In this document: positions 15,605-21,295 of the stretch, one piece after another | Numbering within the stretch: position 1 is the first letter of the stretch | Layout of the letters: every line of letters starts with the position of its first letter | Assembly (NCBI GenBank): GCA_031274495.1 | Contig: JAISQB010000012.1 | Coordinates: forward strand, 1-32,498 | Origin: Campylobacteraceae bacterium | Lineage (GTDB): Bacteria > Campylobacterota > Campylobacteria > Campylobacterales > Campylobacteraceae | DNA: 32,498 nucleotides | Reading direction: 5' to 3' | Program-made: the position numbers and the translations under genes | The notes under the pieces: model-generated | Databases searched by the model: none | What the model was told of the DNA's origin: nothing | What the model saw: only the letters and a program-made list of their open reading frames with translations

Positions 15605-17353
15605 ATGTTTGATTGTGCAACAAACACTTTAGTGGCAAATCCGTCTGCAAATTTAGTGAAGCTTGCTTCATCGGCAGCTAAGAATAGGACATCTCTTGCA
15701 ATACTTCGCTCTATAGCCGCTATCTTTTTTGCATCGTTGCTGCTTGTGGGATGCAGTAGTTTCAAGAGAGAAATTTATACGGCTACATTTATCAGCCATA
15801 AAGATTCGCAGATCATAATAAGCGCAGCGGCCGGTTCTGATATTCCTATTCCTACCGCGAGCAGAGCGGGTTATCTTTTTACGGATTGGCAAGAGGATGA
15901 CACAGCGGAGGCGATAGCAGGCGGGACTTCGTACAAGTTGACAAAAAATACAACTTTCAAAGCGCGCTATACCGCCATAACTTATACCGTTATATTTGGA
16001 TCGGATACCTTCAAAGGAACGCAAGATTCACCCATAACAGCTCCCGCTATCGCGCCTAAAAAAGGCTATATCGGCGTTTGGCAAGAGGAGGGCGGGGACG
16101 TAAAAGTGTCAAACGGCACCCTATACGCACCGACAAAAAACGCAACCTTTCAAGTGCAGTATGAAGAGCCCGTCAGAGTTGCTTTTTTTGACGCGGATCT
16201 TAATCTTTTAACATCTGAAGATATTTTGAATGGTGAGACTGTGATGTTTTGCAATACATGCTGCACGCAAACTTGGTACGAAGCAAACAAGTCAAGCCCG
16301 ATAAGTATACCTTTTGCGGCAAACGGCAGTATCAACTTTTATGCGATTCCAAATGTTATAGAGGTAGCCGATCAGGTGGGATTGGACGATATGCGAAATA
16401 ACTTGACCGGCAAATATGTATTGACAAAAGATATAGCGTTAAGCGATAGAGCCGCCGGCGTTGATAGTAATGGGTGGTTTCCCATCGGGCATGATTATGA
16501 CAACCGCTTCTCGGGCGTTTTTAACGGCAACGGACACAAGATAACGAAACTTTGGATGGATAGAACATATGGTAACTATACGGGGTTGTTTGGTTTTATA
16601 CAGGATGCGACGATAAAAAACCTAAGCGTTGAGATAGACAATAGCAACGGCGGCATTAGAGGGCATGACCGTGTCGGCGGCATCGCGGGAGTAGCTTACG
16701 ACCGCTCAACGATCGCCAACAGCCGTACCACAGGAAAGATCAGTGGAAGAGATTATGTCGGCGGCATCGCGGGATATGTAAGTGCCGGTTCGATAACCAA
16801 CAGCTACTTTAAGGGAAATATCGACGCGAGCGGTAACTATATCGGTGGCATCGCGGGACTTGCCAACGCCAAATCGATAATAACCGGCAGTTACTCCAAA
16901 GCCGGTATCGACGGACTAAATAATGTCGGCGGCATCGCGGGATACATCTACAGCGGCAGCATAAGCAACAGTTACTCTACGGCAAATATCAGCGGGGCAA
17001 GCAATGTGGGCGGTATCACGGGAAGCGCTTATTACGGCTCGATCATCACCAATAATGCCGCGCTGAGCTCCCTCGTTTTGGGCACGGCAAACTCCAATCG
17101 TATCGTCGGATATATAGACGGCGTCAATACGGTATTAAACAATATCGCCAAAATCGATATGGCGACGGACTTTACCGATTTTGTCGAAGGCAACGGGTAT
17201 TCTGGAACAGGAAAGACTGATAGCGTTTTGAAGTCTAAAGAGACTTATGCCAACAATCCGGTTAGCGGTGGTCTTGGCTGGAATTTTGAGACGATTTGGA
17301 AGATGGAGGCGGATAAAAACGGCGGGCATCCATATTTTTACTGGCAAGAGTAG
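15605..17353 (+). CDS. Surface lipoprotein with InlB B-repeat (Listeria-Bacteroides)-like modules and GLUG-like repeats
   Basis: RBS GGAGG; lipobox LLLVGC; YTATFISHKD...AGYLFTDWQ; then VGGIAG...SITNSY.. repeats. DNA core GTCGGCGGCATCGCGGG recurs at 16673, 16757, 16841 (variant) and 16925 (84-bp period), then a variant at about 17006. Confidence 0.82.
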   Translation: MFDCATNTLVANPSANLVKLASSAAKNRTSLAILRSIAAIFFASLLLVGCSSFKREIYTATFISHKDSQIIISAAAGSDIPIPTASRAGYLFTDWQEDDTAEAIAGGTSYKLTKNTTFKARYTAITYTVIFGSDTFKGTQDSPITAPAIAPKKGYIGVWQEEGGDVKVSNGTLYAPTKNATFQVQYEEPVRVAFFDADLNLLTSEDILNGETVMFCNTCCTQTWYEANKSSPISIPFAANGSINFYAIPNVIEVADQVGLDDMRNNLTGKYVLTKDIALSDRAAGVDSNGWFPIGHDYDNRFSGVFNGNGHKITKLWMDRTYGNYTGLFGFIQDATIKNLSVEIDNSNGGIRGHDRVGGIAGVAYDRSTIANSRTTGKISGRDYVGGIAGYVSAGSITNSYFKGNIDASGNYIGGIAGLANAKSIITGSYSKAGIDGLNNVGGIAGYIYSGSISNSYSTANISGASNVGGITGSAYYGSIITNNAALSSLVLGTANSNRIVGYIDGVNTVLNNIAKIDMATDFTDFVEGNGYSGTGKTDSVLKSKETYANNPVSGGLGWNFETIWKMEADKNGGHPYFYWQE

Positions 17354-17641: not shown

Positions 17642-18346
17642 TTAAAAGATTACCTTTATGACCTTGCCTATGATCTGGAATACGCTTTGATCGTCCGGAT
17701 CTACTTCCCAGCTTTTATAATCAGCGTTTCGCGAAATAATCTCTAAAGTGCCTTTGTTTGATAGCTGTAAAATTTTGACCATAAGGACATTGCGCCAGTT
17801 TAGTACATACAGCCCATCTCCGCTGTAAGTGTTTTTTGTGATGTCAAAAATGACCCAGTTGTCGGGTAAAAGTATAGGGAGCATACTATAGCCGTCTACT
17901 TGGGTAGTACGCAAATTTGCAGCATTTGCCGGTGTTTTAAAGGCTATTTGAGAAATAACAAAAGTCTCATGTGTATCAAAAACTTCCGTATCTTCTATGC
18001 TTGATAATGTACCGGCTGAGGCACGCTGTGACAATATGTTTATGCGTACAGTCTCTTCTGTCTTGCTTGATGGATCTGCTGATTGATTGAACGTCTCCGA
18101 AATCTTTTTTATAGGACTTGGTGACACATTTTCCTGACTTAGTGACTCGTTCTCTTTTTCTAAAAAATAAGAGATATCTTTTTCGAGCGCTTTTGCAAGC
18201 TTTCCCAGAATAGAGAGAGTTATTTTTGCCTTGTCTATCTCGTAAGATTTAACGCTGTTTAGGGATACACCGGATTTTTTGGCAAGCTCTTCTTGATTCC
18301 AACCAAATTTTTGTCTGTGAAGTTTTATTTTTTGTCCTAAAGTCAT
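17642..18346 (-). CDS. Prophage repressor: HTH_3/Xre N-terminus with S24 LexA-like peptidase domain
   Basis: MTLGQKIKLHRQKFGWNQEELAKKSGVSLNSVKSYEIDKAKITLSILGKLAKAL; C-terminal VDGYSMLPILLPDNWVIFDI...GLYVLNWRNVLMVKIL. Confidence 0.9.
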   Translation of the reverse strand: MTLGQKIKLHRQKFGWNQEELAKKSGVSLNSVKSYEIDKAKITLSILGKLAKALEKDISYFLEKENESLSQENVSPSPIKKISETFNQSADPSSKTEETVRINILSQRASAGTLSSIEDTEVFDTHETFVISQIAFKTPANAANLRTTQVDGYSMLPILLPDNWVIFDITKNTYSGDGLYVLNWRNVLMVKILQLSNKGTLEIISRNADYKSWEVDPDDQSVFQIIGKVIKVIF

Positions 18347-18355
18347 ATTTTTTCC

Positions 18356-18384
18356 TTGACAAGTCTAAATATTTAGACTATAAT
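18356..18384 (+). promoter_or_regulatory. Rightward early promoter with embedded palindromic operator
   Basis: TTGACA (18356-18361), 17-bp spacer, TATAAT (18379-18384); perfect palindrome AGTCTAAATATTTAGACT at 18362-18379 fills the spacer; located between the divergent repressor and the early genes. Confidence 0.8.
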
Positions 18385-18447
18385 TTCAATAGTTTTAGAA
18401 AATTATTGCATTTAACTGCTTTAACTTTTCTTGTGTTTTTTAATTTA

Positions 18448-18542
18448 TTGGCCTCGAGATTGCCAAGAGGCTCCTACGTACTATCCTAATGGAGGGCAAA
18501 CGCCCGCCGTGAGCGCAATAATAAGCGGATAGTTATTTTTTT
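18448..18542 (+). ncRNA. Candidate structured leader RNA / attenuator ending in a terminator-like hairpin
   Basis: Alternative hairpins TTGGC/GCCAA vs GCCTC/GAGGC (18448-18471); outer stem ACTATCC (18480-18486)/GGATAGT (18527-18533) enclosing GGAGGGC-AAA-CGCCCGCC; then TA plus 7 T (18536-18542). Confidence 0.45.
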
Positions 18543-18667
18543 GGGTTTTTTAGGGCGGAGATTATTTCATTTCTGCCATTGCAGATATATATGTGGTATA
18601 TCCTTTTGATTTGCCTCCTCTTCCCTGAAAAGCCCATTTTTAGTTAATTTTTGTTTGGAGACAAATA

Positions 18668-18823
18668 ATGACAAAAATAGTTGAATATAAGCTTGAGTAC
18701 GGCACCGGCGCGTGCAATAAATGAGGCGGTTGGCGAGGGGAGCTTTGCGAACTCAATCGGCTTTTGGCAACTTATAAAAAGATGAAAGCAGTTAGGAGTA
18801 TAAGGCAACGTATGAGTAGATAA
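18668..18823 (+). pseudogene. Small early ORF interrupted by an in-frame TGA
   Basis: ATG at 18668 (GGAG upstream): MTKIVEYKLEYGTGACNK*GGWRGELCELNRLLATYKKMKAVRSIRQRMSR*; TGA at 18722-18724, frame continues to TAA at 18821. Confidence 0.4.
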
Positions 18824-18927
18824 AGGCAGACGTTTAACGCAAAGCGGGATTAAATTTGTAAAGATGTTTGAAGTGGTTATCGCAGGATAACAATTTGCGA
18901 AAACCCCTAATAGTCTGTATATAATAC

Positions 18928-18945
18928 TCTACGGTGATGTAGAGG
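18928..18945 (+). promoter_or_regulatory. Hairpin just downstream of a TATAAT element upstream of the transposase operon
   Basis: CTCTAC-GGTGAT-GTAGAG directly follows GTATATAAT (TATAAT 18921-18926). Confidence 0.3.
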
Positions 18946-19043
18946 ATATCAAGTAAATATATGCGTAATTGCGGATGGGTGCAAATGGTGAATTTTATTG
19001 AACAAAAATAACTGACTACTAAAAAAATTGAAAAGGAAAAAAT

Positions 19044-19271
19044 ATGAAATTTAAATCAGGGTCTCTATCTGAAAGATTGGCAAAGAGAGGTAAATCCATA
19101 ACCCTTTTAGGCAGGAGCGTAGGATTTACAACAAGCGAAATCGCCCTGCTTGGTAAATTCAGCAACGGCACTACTCGAGGAAAAAGAAACAGCATAACAA
19201 AAAGGCTGCTTAAGACGCTGCAAGAGTGCGATAAAGATGTAGATGAAGTGTTACGTGAAATGGAGTGGTGA
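19044..19271 (+). CDS. Small basic protein in the Ner position, possibly DNA-binding
   Basis: 75 aa, MKFKSGSLSERLAKRGKSITLLGRSVGFTTSEIALLGKFSNGTTRGKRNSITKRLLKTLQE; AAAGGA RBS; directly upstream of MuA. Confidence 0.6.
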   Translation: MKFKSGSLSERLAKRGKSITLLGRSVGFTTSEIALLGKFSNGTTRGKRNSITKRLLKTLQECDKDVDEVLREMEW

Positions 19272-19273
19272 CC

Positions 19274-21295
19274 ATGGCAGAATGGAAAAGCGCAAAAAAA
19301 TTTGCACAAGAAAAAGGTGTTAATTATGATGCTGTCAGGCAAGCTGTATCTCGCGCCAATAAGGCAGATAAAAAATTTTGCAAGATAGGGTCTAAATATT
19401 TGTACTTTAGGTACATTTATGGCATTGGACATGGTGGTAAAGTTCTGCAAATTTACTCCGAACCGATACAAAGTGCTACGCCCGAATGCGTAGAGGTGGG
19501 CGTGCCCATCCAAACTGAAGTTGTCCCCACGCAGGCTAATACTAAATCTATTACAGAGACTCCCGATATAAGCTATTTTACGCTTACAGCGGAGCAAAAA
19601 GAGGAGGCGAATAAAAAACTTTGCATCCTTAAAGAGTACGAAAAAGCCCGTAAGCGCGGTGTTTGTGTTGTGGATTTTTTAAAGGTCTGCGACATAGAAC
19701 ACCCTGAATATGCGCTGAATGAAGCGAAGCTGTTTAGATGGCGGCGCGATTACAAAAAAAGCGGTATAACCGCTCTTGCGGATAAGCGCGGTGTTGTTAG
19801 GGCAGGTTCTACAAGTTTGGATGAGTGGATGCAGGAGTTTGTGCTTACAAAGTTTCGCGCACACGGTGCAGGGAAGATGAATTTTTTACAACTCCGGGAT
19901 GCCTTGCATAAAGAGGCGCATTTTAGAGTTGGATACGACTACTACGGCTTTATAATGGGGGAAGTTAAATCTCTGTGCGGCTATGGCACTATTAAGAGAT
20001 TTATTGAAAATTATTACAAAGCGAACTCCCTTGAGTACTTAATGGTTACTAAGGGCGAGGATAAGGCTAAGAGCTATAGGCAACCCGCGATGGGCAACCA
20101 AAAAGAGATTGTAACCTACCGCAACCAAGAGTGGCAGATAGACAGCTCTCCTTTGGATGTTATAGTCTTAGATAAAGACGGCAAGCAGATACGCCCGTTT
20201 ATATTGTCTATTATTGATACATACTCGGGCAGATGTGTCGCGAGCCTCAATAAGACCTCCAACTCCCTTGCGCTTATAAGGCTTCTTTGGAAAGCGTTCT
20301 CTAAGCTCGGCAAACCTACCTACATAAAAGGCGACAACGGCAAGGATTATCTATCTAAACAATTTCAAGAACTTTTAAATGGCTTGGGGATTGATTACGA
20401 TAGGGCTATTGCTTACAGCGGCGATGAAAAAGGCAGTGTTGAGCGGCACTTTGGCGTTATGCAACACTCCGATATCTCTTTTGCACACGGCTATATAGGA
20501 TCTTGTCTAAGAGATAGAGAGGCTATCGAGCAGCGCACACCTAAACGCGAGCGCACGGGAACGGATAATAATGGCAACGCGATAAAAACGAACCAGAAAT
20601 TTTTAATGACCTTTGAGGAGGCGGAGGCATTGTTGGAAGAGACGGTCCTGAAGTGGGACATTATGAGAGTGCGCCGCAAGTCTGATTTATCTCCTTTAGA
20701 CAGATGGAACGCCTGCAACAAAGAGTTGGTGGGCGTGGACTATGCGAAGTTTTTGTTGTATGCCTCTGAGGGCGTTAATAGGATCGTTGGCAAAAAGGGT
20801 CTGAGTGTGGAAGCGATGGTCTATGTAAGCAAAGATCTGCCTCCTGTGGGTACGGAGGTAGTTACAAGACACAACATAGACAACTTACAAGAGATTTATG
20901 TTTTTGACGCTAAGGGCAATTTTCTATGTACTGCGTGGGATAGAGAGATAGCTGCCTTGAGCGCGGAAGATTATAAATTGGCTAAAAAGATGTTTAGAGA
21001 GGATGTGAAAGCCATAAGGAAGCTTATCCGAAGCGCACAAGCATCCGAATTTACGAAGTTGCATCTTGCTTATGACCTTGAGAAGATGCAAGATACGCAT
21101 AGAAAATCTCTTAAATCCGAAAGTATGGCAGAAGATGGCGACATAAGTGCACTTAAACAGCAGCTAAAGGAGGAGAGAGAGATAAGAGCTATCACGGGAG
21201 CGAATTTTGATGCCCCCGAAATTAAAAAACAGCCTAAGCAAAAACGGGTTACTTGGGAAGATGTGGTTAACGGCTACATCTCAGAGAGTGCTTAA
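19274..21295 (+). CDS. Mu-like DDE transposase (MuA)
   Basis: N-terminal HTH, WQIDSSPLDVIVLDKDGKQIRPFILSIIDTYSGRCVASL, GKPTYIKGDNGKDYLSKQFQELLNGLGI, GDEKGSVERHFG; followed by MuB-like gene. Start at ATG 19274. Confidence 0.92.
   Translation: MAEWKSAKKFAQEKGVNYDAVRQAVSRANKADKKFCKIGSKYLYFRYIYGIGHGGKVLQIYSEPIQSATPECVEVGVPIQTEVVPTQANTKSITETPDISYFTLTAEQKEEANKKLCILKEYEKARKRGVCVVDFLKVCDIEHPEYALNEAKLFRWRRDYKKSGITALADKRGVVRAGSTSLDEWMQEFVLTKFRAHGAGKMNFLQLRDALHKEAHFRVGYDYYGFIMGEVKSLCGYGTIKRFIENYYKANSLEYLMVTKGEDKAKSYRQPAMGNQKEIVTYRNQEWQIDSSPLDVIVLDKDGKQIRPFILSIIDTYSGRCVASLNKTSNSLALIRLLWKAFSKLGKPTYIKGDNGKDYLSKQFQELLNGLGIDYDRAIAYSGDEKGSVERHFGVMQHSDISFAHGYIGSCLRDREAIEQRTPKRERTGTDNNGNAIKTNQKFLMTFEEAEALLEETVLKWDIMRVRRKSDLSPLDRWNACNKELVGVDYAKFLLYASEGVNRIVGKKGLSVEAMVYVSKDLPPVGTEVVTRHNIDNLQEIYVFDAKGNFLCTAWDREIAALSAEDYKLAKKMFREDVKAIRKLIRSAQASEFTKLHLAYDLEKMQDTHRKSLKSESMAEDGDISALKQQLKEEREIRAITGANFDAPEIKKQPKQKRVTWEDVVNGYISESA

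Follow-up and report, generated by a model that had tools for sequence, protein, structure and literature searches.

A conserved, folded RNA in the early leader of a Mu-like prophage of Campylobacteraceae

Early leaders of described phages and the prophage under study

In phage Mu, the interval between the repressor gene and ner holds operators and the transpositional enhancer, and we know of no large folded RNA at the start of the lytic transcript of Mu or its relatives. The PL leaders of lambdoid phages carry a nut or put site followed by an RNase III stem, and put suppresses termination through the zinc-binding domain of the RNA polymerase beta' subunit, with no phage protein required. In a limited literature search we met no account of Mu-like phages whose early leader is a structured RNA. 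The put element of HK022, about 70 nt long, forms two stem-loops just after PL (PMC9378689). The leader described here resembles it as a structured nascent RNA of similar size lying just past an early promoter that is probably repressor-controlled, with its first hairpin, P1, at about +60; it differs in being multibranched and probably pseudoknotted, in having a long stem after it, and in that its antitermination activity is only predicted. A search of the HK022 genome with the RNA model of the element (R1), at E up to 10, gave no match. With lambda nut and the rrn boxA the leader shares a boxA-like block about 7 nt ahead of a hairpin near the early transcript start, and clear boxA sequences occur in related Mu-like leaders; in the present case, however, the box is degenerate, an 11-nt loop in P1 takes the place of boxB, and no ORF for an N-like basic (arginine-rich) protein lies between leader and ner. 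The Gifsy-1 prophage produces IsrK as a short sRNA and a read-through mRNA (PMC4825925), a comparable arrangement of prophage promoter, structured RNA and mRNA beyond, whereas the leader studied here has no conserved terminator between RNA and mRNA. The CI RNA of satellite P4 is also an untranslated structured RNA of an immunity region, but our locus lacks complementary repeated targets and has a protein repressor.

The window (the whole stretch of DNA analysed, 32,498 nucleotides) is one entire contig of a 1.8-Mb genome and contains a Mu-like prophage with a rightward gene order of Ner-position gene, MuA-like transposase, MuB-like ATPase, GemA and Mor. The folded leader occupies the repressor-to-Ner interval of about 700 nt (Table 1). 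Since a perfect sigma-70 promoter here holds an 18-bp operator-like palindrome, early lytic transcription most likely starts from it, and near-consensus promoters stand at the equivalent spot in most related Mu-like loci. The palindrome is probably the operator to which the repressor would bind; at the equivalent position the sister phage described below has GACAAAAA..TTTTTGTC. No tRNA or tmRNA was found, and a search with filters off detected no second copy of the element inside the prophage. Just left of the repressor, an ORF of 582 aa (15605-17353) contains GLUG motifs and shows weak similarity to the Listeria-Bacteroides repeat and the M26 N-terminal region, and its product is probably a surface protein. 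Past the leader, at 18668-18790, two overlapping short frames (MTKIVEYKLEYGTGACNK and INEAVGEGSFANSIGFWQLIKR) look like the remains of a small early gene disrupted by a frameshift.

Table 1. Genes, promoter elements and RNA features of the prophage early region (window coordinates)
Feature	Position	Strand	Details
Phage repressor, HTH_3 + S24 peptidase	17642..18346	-	Divergent from early operon; Pfam HTH_3 2.7e-13, Peptidase_S24 5.6e-14; PHROG transcriptional repressor 9.6e-33
Early promoter TTGACA-17-TATAAT	18356..18384	+	Sigma-70 consensus 12/12; predicted start near 18391
18-bp perfect palindrome AGTCTAAATATTTAGACT	18362..18379	.	Within promoter spacer; candidate repressor operator
Conserved block CTTGTGTTYYTTAAYTTA	18430..18447	+	Precedes P1; 15/18 identical to L129; resembles degenerate boxA (UGYGUUYYUUA)
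P1 hairpin	18450..18472	+	Stem 18450-18455/18467-18472; 11-nt loop GAGAYUGCMAA 18456-18466
Loop pseudoknot, candidate	18460..18518	+	UUGC 18460-18463 with GCAA 18515-18518
P2 stem	18480..18533	+	18480-18486/18527-18533; encloses P3 and segment GCGCARYAAUAAGC 18513-18526
P3 hairpin, variable	about 18489-18510	+	Inside P2
U7 run	18536..18542	+	T7 in DNA; in the window only the last U (18542) joins P5
P5 long stem	18542..18636	+	18542-18555 with 18623-18636, 18557-18560 with 18618-18621; then UUUUU 18637-18641
Ner-position small protein gene	19044..19271	+	First clear ORF beyond leader; tblastn to same position in L066, L074
MuA-like transposase	19265..21295	+	Pfam rve, Mu-transpos_C; PHROG transposase 9.2e-79

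Conservation of the folded domain in a sister prophage

The initial annotation had drawn attention to a dense run of complementary segments downstream of the promoter, and every one of them was located in the window: TTGGC (18448-18452) with GCCAA (18462-18466), GCCTC (18451-18455) with GAGGC (18467-18471), ACTATCC (18480-18486) with GGATAGT (18527-18533) around GGAGGGC-AAA-CGCCCGCC, GGCGGAGA (18554-18561) with TTTCTGCC (18570-18577), and GATATA (18584-18589) with TATATC (18597-18602). The folded element runs on to about 18641, past the end at 18610 given to it earlier. Its folding energy is ordinary, both over 220 nt (z = -1.15; 24 of 200 shuffles equally good) and over the 100-nt core (z = -1.28), so that the single-sequence evidence for structure is no better than chance.

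The comparison with a sister prophage carries the case for a folded RNA. The nearest transposase, 63-64% identical, comes from a genome of the same genus, and a scan of the genome collection identified the sister contig L129 as belonging to Campylobacteraceae bacterium isolate Cd354_bin72. The same element lies there at 2709-2812, between repressor and Ner gene and 62 nt past an equally perfect promoter; the counterpart of the Ner-position gene matches a PHROG HTH family. In P1, three of the six pairs are changed on both sides and one on one side with none broken, the stem passing from GGCCUC/GAGGCU in the window to ACUCCC/GGGAGU in L129 around an unchanged loop. P2 shows one double and one single change and again no broken pair (CUAUCC/GGAUAG to CAAUCC/GGAUUG). 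The candidate pseudoknot segments read CUGC/GCAG in the sister phage (a double change in one of the four pairs and no break), and the YUGC/GCAR complementarity suggests that a pseudoknot of the P1 loop is probably kept in both phages. Over all 19 pairs, five double and two single changes leave no pair broken, while sliding the partner by 1-3 columns gives no double changes and only 29-50% pairing; a shuffle control, limited by the alignment of two sequences, reached the observed values in 20 of 500 shuffles. RNAalifold recovers P1 and P2 unprompted, and L129 folded alone adopts the same topology. Because compensatory changes keep P1 and P2 paired in the sister prophage, these stems are beyond chance, and a conserved, genuinely folded RNA in the early leader is well supported by this comparison, for a P1-P2 domain known from two sequences only. 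The proposal that the immunity region contains, past the early promoter, a structured RNA is thus borne out by the covariation in a homologous prophage that had been suggested as its check. In the same comparison the alternative hairpin TTGGC/GCCAA, one of two P1 hairpins that had been described as mutually exclusive, is not kept and was rejected: at these places L129 reads CCACT and GCAAA.

Searches for further relatives covered families, genomes and phages. With Rfam 15 (4227 models) there were no matches at the gathering cut-off in the window and four related loci and chance-level matches only at E up to 10, in agreement with the earlier statement that the element fits no named RNA family. 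A covariance model run on 153 genomes of the family returned the window and L129 only; no third copy was found in about 400 genomes of the order, nor in pattern scans of viral and genome collections, in which the genome scan returned just the known sister copy. Comparison of the leader by blastn with phages, plasmids and family genomes yielded short A/T-rich matches only, and MuA searches of viral contigs revealed no relatives. Weak model matches in genomes of the order (L208-L220) contain at most P1-like fragments and were set aside as chance. A pattern match in Helicobacteraceae (L172) has no matching structure.

The long stem P5 and the boxA-like blocks

Beyond P2, the 14-nt arms of P5 in the window, UGGGUUUUUUAGGG (18542-18555) and CCCUGAAAAGCCCA (18623-18636), form a duplex of -28.6 kcal/mol, compared with a shuffled-partner mean of -16.4 (sd 2.9), and its equivalents in L129, L141, L145 and L146 each lie 3-5 sd below their own controls. 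A U-run with the P5 stem, just before the first Shine-Dalgarno sequence, is common to five leaders of the host genus. L141, L145 and L146 are Mu-like prophages of this genus whose MuA is only about 25% identical to that of the window, and they share a layout in which a strong promoter and a folded domain are followed by TTTTTT(T)GAGGRGGAT and, at a distance, by its complementary arm (ATCCTCCTCTTCAAA or similar); the ORFs beside the L145 promoter do not encode an S24 repressor. In these leaders a Shine-Dalgarno sequence follows the distant arm within 0-15 nt. The first hairpin stands at about +64 in L141 and L145, and the P1 start lies 60-65 nt past the predicted start in four leaders, those of phages with distant MuA included. 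Upstream of P5, the folded domains of the L141 and L145 leaders are larger and, read by eye, appear to include an H-type pseudoknot with compensating stems: CCCUU/AAGGG and GACUUAU/AUAAGUC in L145, AGUCCG/CGGAUU and GCUUAU/AUAAGC in L141. A GC-rich dispersed repeat (TCTGGATTGCCGCGCTGACGCTCGCAATGACAG-like) is present at L145:4236-4273 and recurs dozens of times in some genomes of the genus (61 matches in G003, 72 in G009).

These leaders also bear on the terminator that the initial annotation had placed at 18542. A terminator scan finds no site there. In L129 the U-run lies 7 nt from P2, as against 2 nt in the window, and is for this reason too far away to be a terminator tail, while in the other four leaders (L129, L141, L145 and L146) it is found inside the P5 5' arm. 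The U-run is most readily taken as a part of P5 or as the lead-in to it, and an intrinsic terminator or attenuator at 18542, formed by a G+C-rich stem with an adjoining conserved U-tract, was rejected after the L129 comparison. Of the earlier description, stems P1 and P2 thus stand, through the compensatory changes in the sister prophage, while the alternative hairpin and the terminator tail do not.

The block preceding P1 was compared with known boxA sequences. The gamma-proteobacterial boxA consensus is GYTCTTTAANA, and the boxA of E. coli suhB was inactivated by a double change that includes C4T (PMC5725501). Against this gamma-proteobacterial consensus, the window (GTTTTTTAATT) and L129 (GTTCCTTAACT) each have 2 mismatches in 11 and L067 is perfect; C4 is absent from the window block. 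Because two consensus positions are missed in each, the window and L129 blocks are candidate boxA sequences only. The window block is boxA-like at 8 of 9 positions at +45, with a borderline shuffle frequency of 0.05, and the boxA-like 11-mer is expected 0.37 times by chance in the window, so that its weight rests on position and conservation: in both the window (UGUGUUUUUUA) and L129 (UGUGUUCCUUA) the block lies 7 nt before P1, the order of a nut site. A genome of the same genus has an rrn leader (UGCGUUCUUUA) that also fits the pattern UGYGUUYYUUA, a fit that is descriptive because the pattern was written from these very sequences. Related Campylobacterota Mu-like leaders carry a boxA at +46 to +59 (GTTCTTTAACA in L067; GTTCTTTAAAT in L059, L060 and L148) that is perfect or near-perfect, with shuffle frequencies of 0.002-0.018, and that resembles host rrn leaders, suggesting Nus-factor antitermination of the early transcripts of these four prophages. 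Such rrn-boxA-like boxes favour antitermination, although the window's own box is degenerate. Another conserved leader type follows the early promoter in five Campylobacterota Mu-like prophages (L066, L068, L074, L076 and L077); it combines a G-rich block (GGGTGGGCGGG) with a short ORF for a basic peptide (e.g. MQILKCKKVVVRLKVWKFKITFKLELL), and a hairpin precedes Ner.

Possible roles of the leader

The early lytic transcript of the Mu-like prophage probably has this element as its 5' leader, which would exert in-line control in cis, a reading favoured because the U-run is tied to a long stem before the Shine-Dalgarno sequence in five leaders. As to how it may act, we place antitermination first, because the succession of folded RNA, long hairpin and first gene reproduces the lambdoid PL layout; our tentative hypothesis, to which we give somewhat less than an even chance, is a nut- or put-like leader combined with a processing or attenuation hairpin. 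According to this hypothesis, release of the palindromic operator by the repressor would start early transcription, and the nascent domain of P1, P2 and the pseudoknot would fold behind RNA polymerase. The folded domain could then modify or monitor the polymerase, either alone, as put does, or together with Nus factors at the boxA-like block, as in nut, and the modified polymerase would pass putative termination signals before reaching ner, A and B. The role of P5 would be that of an RNase III-type processing or attenuation hairpin that splits the leader from the coding part, the leader itself acting in cis.

It is also possible, though rather unlikely, that the leader is an attenuator or riboswitch, in which the pseudoknotted domain acts as sensor of a protein or metabolite and the choice between P5 and a local hairpin containing the P5 5' arm governs either termination past P5 or the accessibility of the first Shine-Dalgarno sequence. 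Such a role would suit the conservation of a fold with a fixed loop and a probable pseudoknot. In four of the five leaders, read by eye, a nearby CUCCU-type segment (UUUCUGCC in the window) offers the P5 5' arm a second partner, so that two pairings compete, and 4-7 U follow the P5 3' arm; in L129, ACTCCTT and TCCTTAA are each complementary to its own Shine-Dalgarno region. L145, however, has neither a U-tract after P5 nor a local partner, no known aptamer in Rfam matches, and the gene after the leader varies among the phages.

An IsrK-like sRNA, stand-alone or of dual function, seems improbable: an end after P2 and the T7 run (about 18542), or cleavage at P5, would have to release a stable, trans-acting RNA of about 150-240 nt. 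The strong promoter, the compact structured RNA and, in the window, a T7 run 2 nt beyond P2 agree with it, as does the Gifsy-1 precedent (PMC4825925), but the terminator scan is without a site here and the U-run of the sister phage, 7 nt from P2, fits better as a component of P5. We consider it very unlikely that the region works solely as a DNA site (repressor operators or a MuA transpositional enhancer) with incidental RNA pairing. The operator-like palindrome in the promoter and the unexceptional folding energy would accord with such a site, yet it is pairing rather than DNA sequence that the compensatory changes preserve, and in P1 a constant loop sits on a stem that changes. P4-type RNA immunity, raised by the initial annotation, in which a processed leader RNA would pair with flanking copies in the leader, terminate early transcription and keep the prophage silent, is hardly credible in spite of a structured RNA between repressor and early genes, as a complete S24 repressor and a probable palindromic operator are present in this phage, and 18350-19044 contains no repeated complementary targets, only T-rich or distant imperfect pairs.

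Returning to antitermination, a more specific and doubtful proposal is that the leader represents an RNA-only or Nus-assisted element of new architecture, made up of a boxA-like block, a hairpin with an 11-nt loop, a pseudoknot and a long processing stem, which would head the early operon of Campylobacterota Mu-like phages, its layout being shared within one host genus whatever the transposase. If the leader does modify the host polymerase, RNA-based antitermination would reach beyond the lambdoid coliphages, and the element may provide a compact tool for termination control in Campylobacterota. Even as a plain attenuator, it would be an RNA motif so far undescribed, whose structure can be put to the test.
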